Of a DNA stretch of 61,595 bases, positions 30,658 through 39,140 are shown piece after piece. The notes beneath the pieces were generated by a model, which saw only the letters and a list, made by a program, of their open reading frames with translations, did not search any database and was not told where the DNA came from. The number at the start of each line of letters is the position of its first letter. The stretch's first letter is position 1. Source of the stretch: Umezawaea endophytica (GTDB lineage: Bacteria > Actinomycetota > Actinomycetes > Mycobacteriales > Pseudonocardiaceae); assembly GCF_025061645.1 (NCBI RefSeq), contig NZ_JANYMP010000026.1:89513-151107 (forward strand), read 5' to 3'. Made by a program: the position numbers and the translations under genes.

Positions 30658-31239
30658 GTGGGCAAGGTGGTCATGTACAGCTCGGTGTCGGTGGACGGCT
30701 TCATCGCAAACGAGAATGACCAACCCGGTCCACTGTTCGACTGGTTGACCAGTGGCGACGTTCCGTTGGACGACAGTGGTTACCTGAAGGTGTCGCAGAC
30801 CTCGTACGACTACACCCGCCCGTACTGGGACCAGATCGGGGTGACGATCGCAGGCCGCCATGTTTTCGACCTGACGGATGGCTGGGACGGAAAGCCGCCG
30901 AGCGGAATCGACCACGTAGTCGTCGTGACACACCGCCCAGCACCCGAGGGCTGGAACCCTGAGGCACCGTTCCACTTCGTTGACGGCATCGAGGCGGCAG
31001 TTGCCAAGGCACAGGAGTTGGCGGGTGACCGCGTGGTCGAGGTCGCCGCAGGCGACGTAGGCGGCCAGGTACTGGCAGCAGGCCTGATCGACGAGGTACG
31101 CATGGACGTCGTACCCGTCGTGCTCGGAACAGGCAAACGCTACTTCGGATCAACCCAAGCACAACACCTGCTGGAAGACCCTGACGTGGTAATCCAGGGC
31201 AACAGAGTGTTACATCTGCTCTACCGGCTACACCGCTGA
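30658..31239 (+). CDS. Dihydrofolate reductase family (RibD C-terminal-like) protein
   Basis: A 193-residue NADPH-binding reductase of the RibD C-terminal/YyaP type: MYSSVSVDGFIA at the N-terminus, GVTIAGRHVFDLTDGWDG in the middle, and GGQVLAAGLIDEVRMDVVPVVLGTGKRYF near residue 140-170. It is not the housekeeping folate enzyme. The GTG at 30658 follows GAGGAG. The physiological substrate is unknown. Its stop is followed by tandem short repeats and the structured repeat. Confidence 0.82.
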   Translation: MGKVVMYSSVSVDGFIANENDQPGPLFDWLTSGDVPLDDSGYLKVSQTSYDYTRPYWDQIGVTIAGRHVFDLTDGWDGKPPSGIDHVVVVTHRPAPEGWNPEAPFHFVDGIEAAVAKAQELAGDRVVEVAAGDVGGQVLAAGLIDEVRMDVVPVVLGTGKRYFGSTQAQHLLEDPDVVIQGNRVLHLLYRLHR

Positions 31240-31241
31240 CC

Positions 31242-31337
31242 GCCGACCACCGCAAAACCGGCACCAACAGCAGCCGACCACCTACGAAGCCGGACGCCGC
31301 CTACCGCCGACCACTTACGAATCCGGACGCCGCCTAC
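31242..31337 (+). repeat. Degenerate tandem repeat of about 32 bases
   Basis: GCCGACCAC begins copies at 31242, 31273 and 31306. Copies two and three (31273-31304 and 31306-31337) differ at only two positions and share CCGGACGCCGCCTAC at their ends; the first is more diverged. Related units follow the other repeat copy on the opposite strand near 39108-39170, so this tandem belongs to the same mobile or dispersed element. It is too short and irregular for CRISPR. Confidence 0.6.
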
Positions 31338-31676
31338 GCAGCGTGGCCGATTTTACTTGGGGGATTTGCCCCTTAAACTTGCGTCGGACGGCGGCTTCAC
31401 CTCCCCGCCGTTTTGGTCCGACGAAGGGGCAAATCTAGGGGCCCCAAGTCAAATCGGCCACATCCCCGCTGGATCCCCGGTACGCAACCCAGCCATGCTG
31501 TGACCTGCGGGTATGTTTTCGAGGGGTTCCCCCGCCACCCCGCTCGCGCAATTATTTCGATGTCTCCTTTTCTTTGTCAAGGCGGGAAAGATGCCTTGAC
31601 AAAGAAAAGGAGACACGAAGGGCGCTGGGGATGGGGCCGGCGGGGGAGGTCTGTGCCGGGGTCAGTTGCGTGCGTC
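31309..31676 (+). repeat. Structured inverted-repeat element, copy A
   Basis: About 370 bases here reappear, inverted, at 38778-39140 (copy B). Copy A holds two hairpins. The first is an interrupted palindrome of 119 bases at 31343-31461, bounded by GTGGCCGATTT and AAATCGGCCAC. The second has perfect 23-base arms at 31561-31583 and 31593-31615 around a 9-base loop (GGGAAAGAT). Between them lies a conserved unpaired stretch (GTGACCTGCGGGTATGTTTT and neighbours). No convincing gene lies within. The copy fills the spacer between convergent genes (30658-31239 and secA2). Differences from copy B in the stems are compensated on both arms. Confidence 0.9.
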
Positions 31677-31716
31677 CGTCACGTCCCAGCCACCACGCTT
31701 CCGGCCAAAGACAAAA

Positions 31717-31747
31717 CGCCTGCCACCCCCAGAGGGGACAGCAGGCG
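31717..31747 (-). terminator. Rho-independent terminator of secA2
   Basis: CGCCTGC (31717-31723) and GCAGGCG (31741-31747) pair, with an inner CCCC-AGA-GGGG stem. Read on the minus strand the hairpin is followed by TTTTGTC. It lies 16 bases after the secA2 stop. Confidence 0.8.
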
Positions 31748-31762
31748 CCTCGAAACCAACCC

Positions 31763-34072
31763 CTACTTACGTTTCACCATCTTCACCAACCCCTTGAACG
31801 TCTCCTCCAACCCGGAAGAGAACGGGTTGTCATGCACCAGATAAGTCCAAGTCGTATTCGGCCGCTTGACCCCAGCCGCAGCCAACTCCGCCCCCTCCGG
31901 ACCGATCTTCGCCTCGGCGAACGTCTCCTCCGCCGATTCCCAGGAATCCGGCACGATCCGGTTGAACGTGGGAATCGCCTCCCGGTGGAACTCGTCCAAC
32001 GGGTTCTGCCGCGCCAGCGCCCTCAGGTGGATGCCCTCACGCAGGTCCGTCAGGAACGTCAGGTGCTCACTCCACCGCTGATCCAGGTGGTACAGCGTGA
32101 TCAACCGAGCCGCCCCGACGAGGACCTCCTCCGAGACGTCCTCCTTCAACTCCGCCGCGCGCTCAGGAGCCCGCTTGGCCAACTCCTCCCAAGCCGCGTC
32201 CGTCGTCAGCACCTTGTTCCGGTGAGCCATCAGCAGTTCCCGCTGGTGCTCCACGAGCTTGTTGTACCGCCACGTGTTCCGGTGGATCTCCAGGTGCACG
32301 CCCTCGGCCACCCGCTGCGCGTGCTCGACCGTGTGCAGCGTCCCCGAGTCGGTGATCCGCCCGTCGTCGTCCACCTCGACCGGCTCGTCGTGGTCCGGCG
32401 CGAACTGCGTGACCAGCTCGTCCTGCAACGACCCGAAGAACACCGACCCACCGGGGTCGCCCTGACGGCCTGCGCGACCGCGCAACTGGTCGTCCAACCG
32501 GCTCGACGTGTGCCGACCGGACCCGACCACGTACAACCCGCCCAGTCCGACGATCCGCTCGTGGTCCTCACCGTCGTGCCCGCCCAGCCGGATGTCGGTA
32601 CCTCGACCGGCCATCTGCGTCGACACCGTGATCCGGTCGAACGACCCGGCGTCGGCGATGATCGTCGCCTCCTCGGCGTCGTTCTTCGCGTTCAGCACCA
32701 CCGGTTCCAACCCGGCCGCGCGCAGCTTCGTCGAGAGCCTCTCCGACTCGGCCACGTCCAGCGTCCCGACCAGGATCGGTCGCCCGGTCTCGTGAACGGA
32801 CGCGATCTCCTTGACGAGGGCCGCTTCCTTCAACTCCAGCGTCGTGTACAGCCGCGGCGCCTCGTCCTCCCGGATGCACTCCTGGTTCGACGGGATCACC
32901 AGGACTTCCAGGGTGTAGAACGTCCGGAGCTGCTCCGCCACCGCGACGGCCGTGCCGGTCATCCCGCACACCGTCGGGTACCGGTTCAGCAGCGCCTGCA
33001 CGGTGATCGAGTCCAGCACCTCGCCGGAGTCCGTCGCAGCGACGGACTCCTTCGCCTCGACGGCGGCCTGCAAGCCGTCGGGCCAGCGCTGCAAGCGGGC
33101 GATCCGGCCGCGGGTGTCGTTGATCAGGTGGACCTTGCCGTCGCGCACGATGTAGTCGATGTCGCGGTGCAGCAGGACGTGCGCGTGCAGGGCCACGTTG
33201 ACCTTGCTCAGCGTCGTCTGGACGTGCTCGTCGGAGTACAGGTCGATGCCGCCGAGCGTGCGCTCCACGGCCTCGGAGCCCGCGCCCGTCAGGTAGACGT
33301 TGCGCTCCTCGTCGTCGACCTCGAAGTGCAGGTCCTTGCGGAGCCTCCGCACCAGGTCGGCGATCACGGGGTCGGCGGCCTCGTTCGCGGTCGAGCCCGC
33401 GAGGACCAGCGGCACGCGGGCCTCGTCGACGAGCACCGAGTCGGCCTCGTCGACCAGCACCACGCGCGGCTTCGGGACGATCCGGTCCGCCTCGTCCACG
33501 GCCAGCCGGTCGCGCAGCACGTCGAACCCGATCTCGCTGACCGCCGCGTACGTCACCTCGGCCTCGTACGCCGCGCGCCGCTCCTCCGGCTTCGAGCTCT
33601 GGCTCAGCCACCCGACGGACACGCCGAGCAGCTCGTACAGCGGACCCATCCACTCGGCGTCGCGCTGGGCGAGGTAGTCGTTCACCGACGCCACGTGCAC
33701 CTGGTCGCCGCGCAGCGCGAACCCGGCCGCCGCGATGGCGCCGGACAGCGTCTTGCCCTCACCGGTCGCCATTTCGACGACGTGACCCTCCAGGAGCCCG
33801 AGGGCACCGAGGATCTGCACGTCGAACGGACGCAGACCGAGCGCGCGGTCGGCGGCCTCCCTGGCGAGCGCGCACACCTCTACCAGTTCGTCCTTGCCGA
33901 ACACGTCCCGTTCGCGCAGCTCCCCGGCCGCGGCGGTGAGCTCCTCGTCGCTGAGCGCGCCGACGCGCTCCTCGTGGGTGTTCACGGCGGCCAGCAGGGT
34001 CCGGTAGGGCGTGAGGTCGGCCGAGCCGGGGCGTTGTGCGAACCGACGCATCCGCTGCTTCAGCCGTGCCAT
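31763..34072 (-). CDS. secA2: Accessory Sec-system translocase ATPase SecA2
   Basis: A 769-residue SecA-type ATPase. Walker A is MATGEGKT at about 101-108, the DEAD-like box is VVLVDEADSV (about 210), and motifs QMAGRGTDIRLGG and LRGRAGRQGDPGGSVFF lie in the second nucleotide-binding domain. The protein is shorter than housekeeping SecA and lacks the C-terminal linker with the zinc-binding cysteines, as in mycobacterial SecA2. SecA2 exports a restricted protein set. ATG 34072 is preferred; GTG 34084 is possible. It is 204 bases downstream of the carboxylase gene and has a clear terminator. Confidence 0.88.
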   Translation of the reverse strand: MARLKQRMRRFAQRPGSADLTPYRTLLAAVNTHEERVGALSDEELTAAAGELRERDVFGKDELVEVCALAREAADRALGLRPFDVQILGALGLLEGHVVEMATGEGKTLSGAIAAAGFALRGDQVHVASVNDYLAQRDAEWMGPLYELLGVSVGWLSQSSKPEERRAAYEAEVTYAAVSEIGFDVLRDRLAVDEADRIVPKPRVVLVDEADSVLVDEARVPLVLAGSTANEAADPVIADLVRRLRKDLHFEVDDEERNVYLTGAGSEAVERTLGGIDLYSDEHVQTTLSKVNVALHAHVLLHRDIDYIVRDGKVHLINDTRGRIARLQRWPDGLQAAVEAKESVAATDSGEVLDSITVQALLNRYPTVCGMTGTAVAVAEQLRTFYTLEVLVIPSNQECIREDEAPRLYTTLELKEAALVKEIASVHETGRPILVGTLDVAESERLSTKLRAAGLEPVVLNAKNDAEEATIIADAGSFDRITVSTQMAGRGTDIRLGGHDGEDHERIVGLGGLYVVGSGRHTSSRLDDQLRGRAGRQGDPGGSVFFGSLQDELVTQFAPDHDEPVEVDDDGRITDSGTLHTVEHAQRVAEGVHLEIHRNTWRYNKLVEHQRELLMAHRNKVLTTDAAWEELAKRAPERAAELKEDVSEEVLVGAARLITLYHLDQRWSEHLTFLTDLREGIHLRALARQNPLDEFHREAIPTFNRIVPDSWESAEETFAEAKIGPEGAELAAAGVKRPNTTWTYLVHDNPFSSGLEETFKGLVKMVKRK

Positions 34073-34276
34073 GAGTGTGGTCACGGTGCCGAAACGTACG
34101 GCAAGGCGGTTGCGTTCCCGGTGTGGTGGGTGCTTCCTCCACCGTTGACGCAGGTCGCTGAGCTGTTCGGCCCAGCATTCACCCGTTCGCACCGCCCCAG
34201 CACACCTCGAAGCGCCAAAACTGTCGGACCCCGGCCGTAGCGTGTGCGTCGGGGGGCCTTCACGCACGGGGGACCT

Positions 34277-37200
34277 CTACCAGGTGTCGATGTACGGCCG
34301 TTTCTTGCCCGAGGCGCGCGGGACGGCCGGGTCGAACCCCGTCGTGATCCAGCGCCGCGTGTCCGCCGGGTCGATCACGTCGTCGACCTCGAACGCCCCC
34401 GCCAGGTTCAGCGCCTTGCCGTGGTCGTAGGAGGCGGCGACCATCCGGTCGAACGCCGCCCGCCGTTCCTCCGGGTCGGCGATGGCCTCCAGTTCCCGCC
34501 GGAACCCGAGTTTCACGGCGCCCTCCAACCCCATGGGGCCGAACTCGCCGCTCGGCCAGGAGACGGTGAACCCCGGCACGGCCAGGCTGCCGCCCGCCAT
34601 CGCCTGCGCGCCGAGCCCGTAGGCCTTGCGCAGCACCACCAGGCCGAACGGCACGTCCAGGTTGGCCGCCACGACCATCATCCGGCTCAGGTGCCGCACG
34701 GTCGCCGTGCGCTCCGCGTCCGGACCGACCATGAACCCCGGTGTGTCGCACAGCGACAGGACCGGCAGGTCGAACGCGTCGCAGAGCTGGAGGAACCTGG
34801 CCGCCTTGTCCGCCGCGTCCGCGTCGATCGCGCCGCCGAGGTGGGCCGGGTCGTTGGCGATCAGGCCGATTGGCCTGCCCTCGACGCGGATCAGCGCGGT
34901 GACGATCCCCCGGCCGAACGCCCGGCGCAGCTCCAGCACCGAGTCGGTGTCCGCGAGGGTGTCGACGACCGCGCGCACGTCGTACGCGCGGAGCCGGTTC
35001 TCCGGGATGGCGTGCCGCAGCAGGCGCTGGTCCGGCGCCGTCCACCCTGGCACCGGTCCGGTGAAGTAGGAGAGGTACTTCCTCGCCACGGCAACGGCTT
35101 CCGCCTCGTCGGCGACCGCGACGTCGACCACCCCGTTGGGGACCTGGACGTCCATCGGACCGATGTCCTCCGGGCGGAACACGCCCAGCCCGCCGCCCTC
35201 GACCATGGCCGGACCGCCCATGCCGATGTTCGCGTCGGCGGTCGCGATGATCACGTCGCAGGTGCCGAGCAGCACGGCGTTGCCCGCGAAGCAGCGGCCC
35301 GAGACGACGCCCACCAGCGGCACCGCGCCGCTGAGCTTCGCCATGGCGTGGAACGAGCCGGTGTCCAGGCCGCTGACCAGACCGTGGTCGGTGTCGCCCG
35401 GCCGACCGCCGCCGCCTTCGGCGAACAGGACCACGGGCAGGTGGCGCTGTTCGGCCAGCGCGAGCATCCGGTCCAGCTTGGCGTGGTTGCGGACGCCCTG
35501 CGTGCCCGCCAGAACCGTGTAGTCGTAGGACATCACGACGGACCGGTGGCCGTCGATCGTGCCGATCCCGGCCACCAAGCCGTCCGCGGGCGTGCGGTCG
35601 ACCAGCTCCTCCAACGTCCGGCGCTGGCGTTGCGCGGCGACGGCCAGACCGCCGTACTCCACGAAGCTGTTGTCGTCGCAGAGGTCCGCGACGTTCTCCC
35701 TGGCCGTGCGGCGGCCGGTCCGGTGGCGCTTCGCCTCGGCGTCCGGACGGCGGAAGTCGTGTCGTGCCAACACTTCCGCGAGGTCCGGTCGGATGGCGTC
35801 GAGGTCGATCCGCTCGACCTCCCCGGTCTCCGCGAGGTCGCCGCCCTCGGCCACCGGCGCGCCCTCGGCGACCGTGTCGCCCACCGCCACCAGCGCACGG
35901 CCGGAGCCGGTGGCGATGACGTGCTGCATCTTCATCGCCTCCACGACGACCGCGCCGGGGTCGACCGCGACGACCGTGCCCGCCACGGGGGAGCGGGGGC
36001 CGTCCTGGCAGGTCGGAGCCGGGAGGGCGTCCAGGGAACCGGTGTGCGTGTCGGACAGGTCCCGGTCCAGCAGGTCGCGGAGGAACCCGAGGTTCGTGGG
36101 AACGCCGTCGACGCGGAACTCGGCGAGCGCGCGGCGCGCCTTGCGCAGCGCGGTGTCGAGGTCGTCGGCGTGCACGACGAGCTTGGCCAGCAGCGCGTCG
36201 AAGCGGTCGCTCGCCCGGTAGCCGCCGTAGGCGTGGGTGTCCACGCGGACGCCGGGGCCCGTCGCCGGTTGGAACGCCGTGACCGTGCCCGCGGAGGTCA
36301 GCGTGACGCGGAGCTGGACGGCGCAGCCGCGTTCCCGGTGCGCGAGGTCCGGGTCCTCGCCCGCGGCGATCAGGAGCTGGGCGCGCACGAGGTCGAGACC
36401 GGTGACCTCCTCGGTCACCGTGTGCTCGACCTGGAGCCGCGGATTGGCCTCCAGGAAAACGAAACCGCCGTCCGGGGACACCAGGAACTCGACCGTGCCG
36501 ACACCCCGGTACGCCACGGCCTCCGCGATCCGCGCAGCGGCGTCGTGCAGCGCCTTGCGCAGGTCCGGGTCCAGCCGCGGCGCGGGGGCGATCTCGACGA
36601 CCTTCTGGTGGTCCCGCTGGAGGCTGCAATCGCGGTCGCCGAGCACGGTCGTGCCGACGACCTGCACCTCGACGTGCCGGGCCCGCGTCAGCAGGCGTTC
36701 CAGGTAGACCGCGCCGTCGCCGAACGCGGCCAGCGCCTCGGCCCGGCAGCGGTCGAGCGCGGCGGGCAGGTCGGCCACGTCGTGGACCTGCCGCATGCCC
36801 TTACCGCCACCGCCCGCGACGGCCTTGACCATGACCGGACCGTGCTCGGCGAAGAACGCCCGCGCGGCCTCGGCGTCCACGGGGCCCGTACCCGGCAGCA
36901 CGGGAACGCCCAGTTCCACGGCGAGCGCGCGGGCACGGCTCTTGTCGCCCAGCAGCGCCAGCACGTCCGGACCGGGCCCGACGAACACCAGACCGGCGTC
37001 GGCGCACGCCCGCGCGAAGCCCGCGTTCTCGGACAGGAAGCCGTAACCGGGGTGGACGGTGTCGCAGCCGTGGTCCAGCGCGACCCGCACGAGGCGGTCG
37101 ACGTCGAGGTACGGAGCCGGTCCGACGCCGTCCAGCCCGACGGCGACGTCGGCCAGCCGGACGTGCAGGGCGTCCGCGTCATCGGCCGAGTGCACCGCCA

Positions 37201-37282
37201 CGGTGCGAAGACCCAGGTCAGCGGCGGTTCGGAGGACGCGGACCGCGATCTCACCCCGGTTGGCGACGAGCAGTCCGGGCAC
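34277..37282 (-). CDS. Single-chain acyl-CoA carboxylase (biotin carboxylase-BCCP-carboxyltransferase)
   Basis: A 1001-residue fusion. Residues about 1-415 are biotin carboxylase (LLVANRGEIAVRVLRTA, HPGYGFLSENAGFA, KAVAGGGGKGMRQV, FLEANPRLQVEHTVTE). The biotinyl domain contains EAMKMQ with the target lysine near residue 451. Residues about 500-1001 are both halves of a carboxyltransferase (SVVMSYDYTVLAGTQG, GGGGRPGDTDHG, LSLCDTPGFMVGPDAE, PSGEFGPMGLEGAVKLGFRREL). Actinobacterial acyl-CoA carboxylases are normally split into alpha and beta subunits, so the fused form marks a long-chain or specialised acyl-CoA carboxylase. GTG 37282 follows AGGAGG. A CTAAGC-type operator lies 11 bases upstream of the start. 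Confidence 0.9.
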   Translation of the reverse strand: MPGLLVANRGEIAVRVLRTAADLGLRTVAVHSADDADALHVRLADVAVGLDGVGPAPYLDVDRLVRVALDHGCDTVHPGYGFLSENAGFARACADAGLVFVGPGPDVLALLGDKSRARALAVELGVPVLPGTGPVDAEAARAFFAEHGPVMVKAVAGGGGKGMRQVHDVADLPAALDRCRAEALAAFGDGAVYLERLLTRARHVEVQVVGTTVLGDRDCSLQRDHQKVVEIAPAPRLDPDLRKALHDAAARIAEAVAYRGVGTVEFLVSPDGGFVFLEANPRLQVEHTVTEEVTGLDLVRAQLLIAAGEDPDLAHRERGCAVQLRVTLTSAGTVTAFQPATGPGVRVDTHAYGGYRASDRFDALLAKLVVHADDLDTALRKARRALAEFRVDGVPTNLGFLRDLLDRDLSDTHTGSLDALPAPTCQDGPRSPVAGTVVAVDPGAVVVEAMKMQHVIATGSGRALVAVGDTVAEGAPVAEGGDLAETGEVERIDLDAIRPDLAEVLARHDFRRPDAEAKRHRTGRRTARENVADLCDDNSFVEYGGLAVAAQRQRRTLEELVDRTPADGLVAGIGTIDGHRSVVMSYDYTVLAGTQGVRNHAKLDRMLALAEQRHLPVVLFAEGGGGRPGDTDHGLVSGLDTGSFHAMAKLSGAVPLVGVVSGRCFAGNAVLLGTCDVIIATADANIGMGGPAMVEGGGLGVFRPEDIGPMDVQVPNGVVDVAVADEAEAVAVARKYLSYFTGPVPGWTAPDQRLLRHAIPENRLRAYDVRAVVDTLADTDSVLELRRAFGRGIVTALIRVEGRPIGLIANDPAHLGGAIDADAADKAARFLQLCDAFDLPVLSLCDTPGFMVGPDAERTATVRHLSRMMVVAANLDVPFGLVVLRKAYGLGAQAMAGGSLAVPGFTVSWPSGEFGPMGLEGAVKLGFRRELEAIADPEERRAAFDRMVAASYDHGKALNLAGAFEVDDVIDPADTRRWITTGFDPAVPRASGKKRPYIDTW

Positions 37283-37292
37283 GGGGGACCTC

Positions 37293-37308
37293 CTGAGCGA
37301 CCGCTTAG
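37293..37308. promoter_or_regulatory. Acyl-CoA regulon operator at the carboxylase promoter
   Basis: CTGAGCGACCGCTTAG is a 16-base dyad with one mismatch from the CTAAGC-N4-GCTTAG pattern found at 39856, 39874 and 47763. The bases ACCGCTTAGTATGT from 37300 are identical to those at 39881-39894 in the acyl-CoA dehydrogenase promoter. Repression by the TetR protein encoded at 39184-39810 is the likely mechanism. Confidence 0.7.
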
Positions 37309-37439
37309 TATGTTGTCGGCCCATCATGGTGGCAGCGCGACACGCCCACGTCCAGGTGGAACCAAAAGCCCCTGTCGGGCGTCAATGGGACACACTTCCA
37401 CCCAACTGTGAACCCGCCAGCCGCCCCAGGAGGTCCCCC

Positions 37440-38240
37440 GTGGTGTTCAAGAGGATGTTGCGCGCGTTCGGTGTAGGCGGGCCCACGGTCGACACCGTGC
37501 TCACCAACCCGAACACGCGTCCCGGCGAGCTGCTGACGGGGGAGGTGCGCATCGCCGGAGGCGACCACCCCGCCGACATCGACCACGTGGCGCTCTCGCT
37601 GGTCACCAGAGTCGAGTTCGAGGGCAGCGACAGCGAGACGATCCGCAACGTCGACTACGGCAAGGTGTTCGTCGCCCAGCGCATCACCGTCGCGCCCGGC
37701 CAGCACATGTCCATCCCGTTCCAGTACCAGGTCCCGCTGGAGTCGCCGATCAACGTCGTGGGCGGCCAGCAGCTCCACGGCATGACCCTCGGCCTCCGCA
37801 CGGAACTCGCCGTGCGCGGCGCAGTCGACCCCGGCGACCTCGACCCGGTCTCGGTCCACCCGCTCCAGTCGCAGGAACGCGTGCTCAACGCCTTCGTCCA
37901 GCTCGGCTTCCGCTTCACCCGCGCCGACAACGAGGCGGGCCGCCTGCACGGCGTGCCGCAGCAGCTCCAGTTCTACCAGGAGATCGAATTCCTGCCCCCG
38001 CAGCAGTTCGTCTCCAAGATCAGCCAGGTCGAACTGACCTTCGTCGCCGACCCGCACAGCCTCTGGGTGATCCTCGAGGCCGACCGCCGCGGCGGCATGT
38101 TCCGCTCCGGCGGCGACAGCTTCGGCCACTTCCACCTGAGCCACCAGGAGGCCGTGGGAGCCGACTGGGCGGGCATCATCCACAACTGGATGGACCAGAT
38201 CGCCGGCCGCCGCGGCTCGTTCGGCGCGTTCGGTCACTGA
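37440..38240 (+). CDS. SpoOM family protein (sporulation-control protein-like)
   Basis: A 266-residue arrestin-like protein of the SpoOM family. Evidence is the N-terminal VFKRMLRAFGVGGPTVDTVL, the RPGELLTGEVRIAGGDHPADIDHVALSLVTRVE block, IPFQYQVPLESPINVVGGQQLHGMTLGLRTELAV, and the closing EADRRGGMFRSGGDSFGHF. In Bacillus the protein affects sporulation initiation; in actinomycetes its role is unclear. The AGGAGG ribosome site precedes GTG 37440. It is divergent from the carboxylase, and the two starts share the same local sequence CAGGAGGTCCCCCGTG, probably by convergence on a strong ribosome site. Confidence 0.85.
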   Translation: MVFKRMLRAFGVGGPTVDTVLTNPNTRPGELLTGEVRIAGGDHPADIDHVALSLVTRVEFEGSDSETIRNVDYGKVFVAQRITVAPGQHMSIPFQYQVPLESPINVVGGQQLHGMTLGLRTELAVRGAVDPGDLDPVSVHPLQSQERVLNAFVQLGFRFTRADNEAGRLHGVPQQLQFYQEIEFLPPQQFVSKISQVELTFVADPHSLWVILEADRRGGMFRSGGDSFGHFHLSHQEAVGADWAGIIHNWMDQIAGRRGSFGAFGH

Positions 38241-38362
38241 ACTGGGCGAATAGACCCGCTGTTCACCCTGCGGACCAGGCGTTCGGTGGGATAGTGATCG
38301 CCGAAGACCCCGGACACGGGCCGGGCGCTTCATCGAGGGTTTTCCAACCCGCAGGAGGCATC

Positions 38363-38635
38363 GTGAGCATCGGCAGCATCATCGGCGCTCTGGTCATCGG
38401 ACTGATCATCGGACTGCTCGGCAAGCTGGTCGCGCCGGGGAAGCAGGGCATCCCCCTGTGGTTGACCATCGTGGTCGGCATCGCGGCGGCGTTCCTCGGG
38501 ACGTTCGTGGCACGGATCTTCGGCGTGGAGGACACACCGGGAATCGACTGGATCGAGTTGGTGGTTCAGATCGCGATCGCGGCGGTCGGGGTGACGTTGG
38601 CGGCGGGCGTGTATGGGAAGAGGAGCGTTCACTAG
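38363..38635 (+). CDS. GlsB/YeaQ/YmgE-family stress-response membrane protein
   Basis: A 90-residue protein with three hydrophobic helices and the family pattern IIGALVIGLIIGLLGKLVAPGKQG, LTIVVGIAAAFLGTFVARIFG and a final hydrophobic segment ending GVYGKRSVH. These transglycosylase-associated proteins accompany general stress responses; the biochemical role is unknown. GTG 38363 follows GCAGGAGG. A hairpin terminator follows at 38712. Confidence 0.88.
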   Translation: MSIGSIIGALVIGLIIGLLGKLVAPGKQGIPLWLTIVVGIAAAFLGTFVARIFGVEDTPGIDWIELVVQIAIAAVGVTLAAGVYGKRSVH

Positions 38636-38711
38636 CGGTTGGTTGTTGCGGTTGAGGGTCGGCGGTTGGTGCAGTCGTGGCCGTCGTCGCAGCCGTAGCC
38701 GCAGGCAAATG

Positions 38712-38736
38712 CCCGCCCTCCTACGGGAGTGGCGGG
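38712..38736 (+). terminator. Terminator of the GlsB-family gene
   Basis: CCCGCC (38712-38717) pairs with GGCGGG (38731-38736), with an inner CTCC-TACG-GGAG stem, followed by TGTTTGCG. It lies 76 bases after the stop and just before repeat copy B. Confidence 0.7.
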
Positions 38737-38777
38737 TGTTTGCGTGAAAAGCCGACCTGCTTCGACGCTTGATCTGG

Positions 38778-39140
38778 CGCACGCAACTGACCCGGCACAC
38801 ACTTCCCCCGCCGCCCCCATCCCCAGCGCCCTTCGTGTCTCTTTTGCTTTGTCAAGGCATCTTTCCCGCCTTGACAAAGCAAAAGAGACATCGAAATAAT
38901 TGCGCGAGAGGGGTGGCGGGGGAACCCCTCGAAAACATACCCGCAGGTCACGGCGTGGTCAGGCTCCGTACCGAAGTGCCAGCGTGGGGGTGGCCGATTT
39001 GACTTGGGGCCTCTAGATTTGCCCCTTCGCCGGACAATAAAGGGCAGAGGTGAAGCTGCCGTCCGGCGCAAGTTTAAGGGGCAAATCCCCCAAGTAAAAT
39101 CGGCCACGCTGCGTAGACGGCGTCCGGTCTCGTAGGTGGC
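38778..39140 (-). repeat. Structured inverted-repeat element, copy B
   Basis: The reverse complement of this stretch matches copy A at 31309-31676 over nearly its whole length. The long-armed hairpin lies at 38836-38858/38868-38890 (23 perfect pairs, loop identical to copy A after reversal) and the GTGGCCGATTT...AAATCGGCCAC interrupted palindrome at 38990-39107. Weaker similarity may continue to about 39170 as diverged copies of the 32-base unit. It fills the spacer between the convergent GlsB-family and TetR genes. Open frames crossing it are shadows. With copy A it forms an inverted pair around 7.1 kb, which could invert by homologous recombination. Confidence 0.9.

Follow-up and report, generated by a model that had tools for sequence, protein, structure and literature searches.

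The window analysed here, a 61,595-nucleotide stretch of the genome of Umezawaea endophytica (11.0 Mb in 65 contigs; G000:C26:89513-151107), carries two stretches of about 370 bases that are inverted copies of one compound. An earlier note on this DNA had described them as a single 370-base element in two copies; the inverted pair is real, but the compound joins two unrelated families, named here A and B, each of which also occurs alone. A and B are dispersed intergenic DNA palindrome families of one actinobacterial family, and are similar in genomic habit to the repetitive extragenic palindromic (REP) sequences. In B the part of the hairpin stem that separates the near-fixed tip from the following conserved block drifts in sequence, while complementarity of its arms stays and no wobble stage is seen. 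On balance, these mirrored arms seem to be the product of arm copying at the level of DNA and not of selection on paired RNA. For mirrored changes in stems the choice between selection and template switching is still an open question. The two families offer many genomes, each with dozens of paralogous stems, in which a kept tip, a free arm and unmirrored loops form an internal contrast, so that mutation and selection can be separated. They also carry the warning that compensatory changes by themselves are no proof of a functional RNA.

Mirrored arms in element B

Both 23-pair B hairpins of the window are exact, as the earlier note had it: their arms (31561-31583/31593-31615 and 38836-38858/38868-38890) are 100% complementary around a loop of 9, and each of the two stem differences between the copies is mirrored on both arms. 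The compensatory changes hold on a far larger sample, comprising 241 B copies and 61 A copies. In the genome holding the window (G000), where 43 of about 77 B copies entered the stem reading, the 43 stems have 39 different 13-base arms, and 559 of 559 cells of the variable stem are Watson-Crick pairs, with no G-T. Among the 40 distinct rows of this genome 99.9% of 920 cells are paired, again with no G-T; 183 of these cells carry a change in both arms, and one-sided changes are absent. The counts of paired and of double-changed cells and the covariation score all lie above the values of all 500 shuffles and of every slid version. Over all genomes examined, the 241 B copies contain 3,038 Watson-Crick, 15 G-T and 80 other cells, and 207 stems are perfect; the tip pattern used for this count fits both strands, of which a loop filter retains one, and it misses copies with a broken left tip, so that perfect stems are favoured, the named Amycolatopsis copies having been fetched with both tip arms required.

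Were A and B structured RNAs (elements of 3' untranslated regions or small RNAs) in which selection on RNA pairing maintains the helices, G-U would be expected to be common among the non-Watson-Crick cells, and transversions could not pass through G-U. The strong predicted folds (against shuffles, z of -10.4 for B as RNA and of -8.9 and -10.4 for its two DNA strands; z of -10.0 for A as DNA), the helix changes on both sides and the placement at gene 3' ends agree with this explanation. However, G-T accounts for 15 of the 95 non-Watson-Crick cells, near the share expected of random mispairing (2 of 12 types), and for none of the 920 cells in the window genome, which disfavours selection on RNA. 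Among 33 small pair changes between nearest arms in that genome 19 are transversions, and a G-U route therefore cannot explain them. Rfam gave no match at the gathering threshold and none that was plausible at a lax one. The arms also diverge no less than the remainder of B does: in sister species, at 54 matching sites where the flanks are about 90% identical, the left arms differ by 17.4% and other parts of B by 14.8% and 14.6%, and the arms are different in 40 of the 54 pairs. Pairs with flanks of at least 99.5% identity were dropped from the matching-site comparisons, the sites are biased to loci with B present, as the loci were fetched for holding it, and the search pattern fixes most of the tip, whose invariance there is no evidence. 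A structured RNA, the first option of the earlier note, is thus distinctly unlikely.

Template switching between the arms of a hairpin during replication (quasi-palindrome correction) is a published route to mirrored stems, according to the part of PMC8794818 available, and could have produced those of B, since copying one arm onto the other would yield a mirrored change in one step. Two independent mutations under selection are hard to reconcile with arms that change at about the pace of the remaining element and still remain mirrored. The corrected quasi-palindromes described in that part of the paper resemble B in their mirrored changes, their perfect stems and the lack of a wobble stage; B differs from them in being dispersed as a repeat family and in its near-fixed tip, and in B the switch is inferred only. 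Hairpin exchange between copies may act alongside template switching and add arm swaps. Some stems in the Amycolatopsis genome G186 are hybrids, their left and right arms being of different types, which indicates exchange between copies, and one-base shifts are found in some stems of genomes other than G186. Arm-to-arm templating, which the earlier note had listed last, is the best supported of its options. Purging of mismatches by a nuclease-type activity was rejected, as the mispair spectrum of the 25 copies with one to three non-Watson-Crick cells has no clean pattern (A.C 16, C.T 13, G.T 9, G.G 6, C.C 2, T.T 1).

Several observations weigh against arm copying. No template-switch event was seen, and among 295 tips judged by flank motifs there was no inverted loop, the signature of a switch (two were undecided). 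Two of the five covariation measures in the window genome, the counts of pairs showing a double change and of pair types, are not above the shuffles (66 and 63 of 500, respectively, were as high). Imperfect B stems make up 6 of 7 in G011 and 5 of 22 in G002, a genome of the same genus as that of the window. Of 17 diverged Amycolatopsis copies that BLAST brought up, the perfect stem is 12-25 pairs long in eight, while nine have none of at least 12; old B copies decay, and mirroring is not universal. The earlier note had held that many copies with uncompensated stem changes would speak against its reading; this holds only in part, since 207 of the 241 stems with an intact left tip are perfect, as opposed to the nine diverged copies just given. 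Nor is the process blind: the internal loops of B persist, as does a T.C mismatch of A, present in 54 of 61 copies. In addition, copies that exchange hairpins can produce some of the same pattern. Because old copies were found decayed, confidence in arm copying was lowered slightly, and it now stands a little above even.

Tip, promoter-like block and chromosomal strand

The earlier note had concluded that structure and not sequence is kept. This is true of the outer 13 pairs of the B stem and of parts of A, but the tip and loop of B are kept as sequence in the window genome: among 42 B loci found there by BLAST, with no condition on the tip, the full 29-base tip is present in 40, and the two exceptions (L041 and L344) are one base off each, the change in L344 lying in the loop and leaving the stem intact. 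The tip is conserved lineage by lineage and not family-wide: both the loop and a portion of the tip are variable in G001 and in the diverged Amycolatopsis copies. A scan of positions 31200-31800 gave a sole promoter-like site, TTGACA-18-AATAAT, on the minus strand within B, with 11 of 12 matches. Across genera, an nA[TC]A[AC]T block lies 16-20 bases from the TTGACA of the tip in 266 of 279 copies, at a spacing of 18-19 in 254; at greater distance it occurs at 2 of 3,906 positions. Conservation peaks locally at the block in G186 and in A. nivea. The constrained parts of B are the tip and this promoter-like block (TTGACA, 18-19 bases, nAYAAT). Such a promoter-like grammar would explain why the tip and the block in the loop are kept, and why the arm is free in sequence and nearly fixed in length. 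What is selected in B may be a promoter-like or protein-binding site formed by the tip and the unpaired nAYAAT block, the spacer having a fixed length and no fixed sequence.

The predicted DNA fold of the antisense strand (the window copy and L170) places the -35-like box in a duplex and the -10-like block in an open internal loop. B may accordingly be compared with single-strand promoters and origins such as Frpo and sso, which it resembles in this predicted arrangement; it differs from them in its tens of chromosomal copies, and searches of plasmid and phage collections gave no match to it. According to the parts of PMC4595007 and PMC7736820 available, the host RNA polymerase treats the folded structures of single-strand origins as promoters. 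B itself might be a folded promoter, directing antisense transcription or primer synthesis from TTGACA-(18-19)-nAYAAT on a single or double strand, and the frequency and spacing of the block, the match at the window copy and the predicted opening of the second box all point that way. However, none of the 266 copies has a T as the first letter of the box, and the nAYAAT motif was defined post hoc. Moreover, the competent strand in Amycolatopsis serves as the template of the leading strand, whereas a priming site for the lagging strand would need the opposite one. A folded promoter is therefore rather unlikely.

The gaps that hold B in G186 are long, with a median of 1,083 bases vs 75 for all gaps. 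In four sets with 159 classified copies, convergent gaps hold 76 and divergent gaps 15, these classes leaving out copies at locus edges (36 of 100 named, 4 of 31 in G000 and 1 of 22 in G002) and depending on genes called by a home-made codon model; in the G186 stretches convergent gaps of at least 150 bases make up 27 of 116 kb. The tips often lie 70-110 bases past a sense stop codon. This placement would suit a transcription terminator or 3'-end element spread between convergent genes, and to that extent agrees with the bidirectional terminator considered in the earlier note. However, the simple scan of 31200-31800 found no terminator-like T-tract site at the window copy, a terminator would tolerate wobble, and in two Amycolatopsis genomes, G165 and G209, orientation follows replication and not genes, all of which makes a terminator unlikely.

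With the replication origin set at dnaA, B is co-oriented with replication in 63-65 of 85 copies in G186, depending on placement of the terminus, in 64 of 74 in G209, 36 of 39 in G165, 8 of 9 in G141 and 3 of 5 in G148; G186 and its relatives share sites, and the genomes are not independent tests of polarity. Gene direction was compared for the first 15 loci listed in each of G165 and G209 (30 in all, five of them unclear). Since 23 of the 25 classified copies are co-oriented, as opposed to 49% of nearby gene bases, the polarity in these genomes is not gene-driven; all five copies between head-on tandem genes follow the fork. Polarity was not seen in G002 (37 of 65 listed, out of 86 copies), in G226 (4 of 10) or in G233 (3 of 10 listed, out of 22 copies). 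In G002, B is mostly on the minus strand at 2.2-3.4 Mb and mostly on the plus strand at 4.2-6.35 Mb, with dnaA at 5.5 Mb; the sampled GC skew of this genome is too noisy to explain the strand pattern. Orientation with replication was seen in four Amycolatopsis chromosomes, but not in the genus of the window nor in one other genus. In Amycolatopsis, the strand of B may be set by the direction of replication, and B probably acts, or was inserted, at the fork.

Tens of dispersed copies, a strand that follows replication in Amycolatopsis and its independence of gene direction would also be expected of a mobile hairpin that some non-Y1 enzyme moves as single-stranded DNA via the template of the lagging strand, and replication-linked orientation is recorded for IS200/IS605 elements in the part of PMC5371812 available. 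A transposase, one of the options of the earlier note, was looked for as a Y1 enzyme of IS200 or REP type and found no support: in a PF01797 search the Y1 (REP-associated tyrosine transposase, RAYT) gene was absent from all 25 B carriers, the same search being positive in 2 of 34 non-carriers. Nor was a partner gene found in the G186 stretches examined, the polarity is missing from G002, G226 and G233, and many sites are common to sister species. Movement by some other enzyme is consequently a tentative possibility, somewhat improbable on present evidence.

The candidates for a function of B are a fork-linked hairpin signal, a single-strand mobile element served by some other enzyme, and a 3'-end element. 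The first could take the form of a chromosomal DNA hairpin signal at the replication fork, in which RNA polymerase or another single-strand enzyme would recognise the tip and the open nAYAAT bubble, the fork would set the strand where the family is active, and arm copying would keep the spacer stem perfect. This composite reading is speculative and we consider it rather improbable; were it true, B would represent dispersed palindromes of a class that does not depend on the known Y1 enzymes.

Element A and relation to known repeats

In the two outer helices of A, 61 copies from three species have 1,763 Watson-Crick, no G-T and four mismatched cells; the pattern used to pick the copies fixes 7 of the 19 outer-helix pairs counted, and copies lacking the known loop motif were excluded, so that none came from 4 of 12 loci in G002 and 1 of 14 in G001. 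The inner helix is less regular (438 Watson-Crick, 2 G-T and 48 mismatched cells), which is partly an effect of the alignment. For the window copies, the limits of the palindrome given in the earlier note agree with the arm ends, and both pair changes it reported in A are mirrored in the alignment. The terminal inverted repeats have 20-base arms with one mismatch. Most copies start with GTGG and end with CCAC; the second position of this foot varies in 3 of 39 copies in G000 and in 5 of 8 in G002, the latter five being GCGG. Direct flanking repeats of 2-9 bases, looked for as target-site duplications at 40 A copies, were no commoner than with shuffled partners.

Like the REP, REPIN and BIME (bacterial interspersed mosaic element) sequences associated with RAYT (TnpAREP), A and B form tens of dispersed intergenic palindromes per genome, some of them paired, and A, with the GTGG...CCAC ends of most copies, resembles the double-foot REPs described in the part of PMC6006769 available. 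They are unlike these systems in that none of the 25 carriers has a Y1_Tnp gene; the GT[AG]G foot of REPs is not constant in A, and the B stem is far longer than a REP stem. A shares terminal inverted repeats with miniature inverted-repeat transposable elements (MITEs), but not target-site duplication. The ends of IS200/IS605 elements are, like B, hairpins with conserved unpaired bases, and the orientation of B is tied to replication in Amycolatopsis; B carriers, however, are without the Y1 enzyme, and the polarity is absent in other genera. A narrow search of open-licence papers found no description of either family.

Copies, distribution and layout

A BLAST search of the window genome with a 368-base query gave at least 46 matches (40 of 175 candidates scored), of which 10 span at least query positions 3-342; a query with B alone gave 47 matches and one with A alone 42 (40 candidates scored each). 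The search of related genomes recommended in the earlier note did yield further copies: a 17-mer formed by the left tip arm and loop of B occurs 77 times in the window genome and is present in 36 of 390 genomes of the family, in five genera, the reversed-pattern control giving none among the rows listed. The named carriers, among the matches listed (80 of 101 stretches), include at least seven Amycolatopsis species and an Actinokineospora. In an order-wide draw of 397 genomes the 17-mer was found in 10, all of the same family, and in none of the 318 outside it. The exact pattern undercounts B, because BLAST with an Amycolatopsis B matched, in some cases weakly, 33 of 41 Amycolatopsis genomes, including 22 of the 30 without the 17-mer. 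The same matches weaken the proposal that B is patchy and so recently mobile. Two weak B matches in other genera (G019, G027) were discarded, no tip or hairpin motif being seen on reading. A is present in 3 of 60 genomes searched, that of the window and its two congeners; a first scan of named genomes with an exact A pattern gave no match. Five viral-contig stretches (L317-L321) bear the 17-base B tip.

B was missing from the target in 3 of 162 matching-site comparisons (duplicates included). At one such site about 4 bases separate apparent convergent stop codons in G186, in place of which A. jejuensis has B together with another hairpin. At some matching intergenic sites of sister species B stands in opposite orientation (L217 vs L225, L249 and L267; L283 vs L200), each oppositely oriented copy adjoining a different gene end, which suggests separate acquisition.

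The features of the window are collected in Table 1. Between the inverted copies, at 31763-38635, lie genes read as SecA-like, acyl-CoA carboxylase-like and Spo0M; on account of these genes a composite transposon with mobile cargo was rejected.

Table 1. Elements A and B and associated features in the window.
Feature	Position	Strand	Remarks
Element A, copy 1	31343..31461	+	119-base interrupted palindrome
Outer arms of element A (copy 1)	GTGGCCGATTTTACTTGGGG / CCCCAAGTCAAATCGGCCAC		one conserved T.C mismatch and conserved bulges
Element A, copy 2, inverted	38990..39107	-	
Element B, copy 1, long imperfect hairpin	31522..31655	+	extent is the stretch folded; ends approximate
Element B, copy 2, inverted	38796..38929	-	inverted-repeat match; limits transferred from copy 1
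B stem-loop, copy 1	31561..31615	+	23 pairs, loop 9; outer 13 pairs variable, mirrored
B stem-loop, copy 2	38836..38890	-	centre of inverted B
B tip TTGTCAAGGC-GGGAAAGAT-GCCTTGACAA	31574..31602	+	near invariant in the window genome (40/42 BLAST-found loci)
Promoter-like TTGACA-18-AATAAT	31551..31580	-	antisense strand of B; second box in internal loop of the predicted folded strand
Two 33-base tandem repeats	31273..31337	+	immediately 5' of A

Other repeats and genes accompany B in G186. At L177:10204-10438 B is followed by 7.8 copies of a 30-base unit, and similar units follow it in other gaps of this genome; about 300-500 bases past the B tip in L179 and L189 there are at least two further palindrome families, with mirrored arms of the GTGAGGGGAACCCT and TGAAGGGCTCCTTGA type. 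In a search of forty 20-kb G186 stretches for a recurrent partner gene, the sole family with at least three members was that of integrase-core proteins, with four copies. These are near copies of a 284-amino-acid protein with integrase-core domains (two of the four were scanned for them), encoded beside B at L178:10370-11224 and L189:10911-11765 and in L190 and L198.

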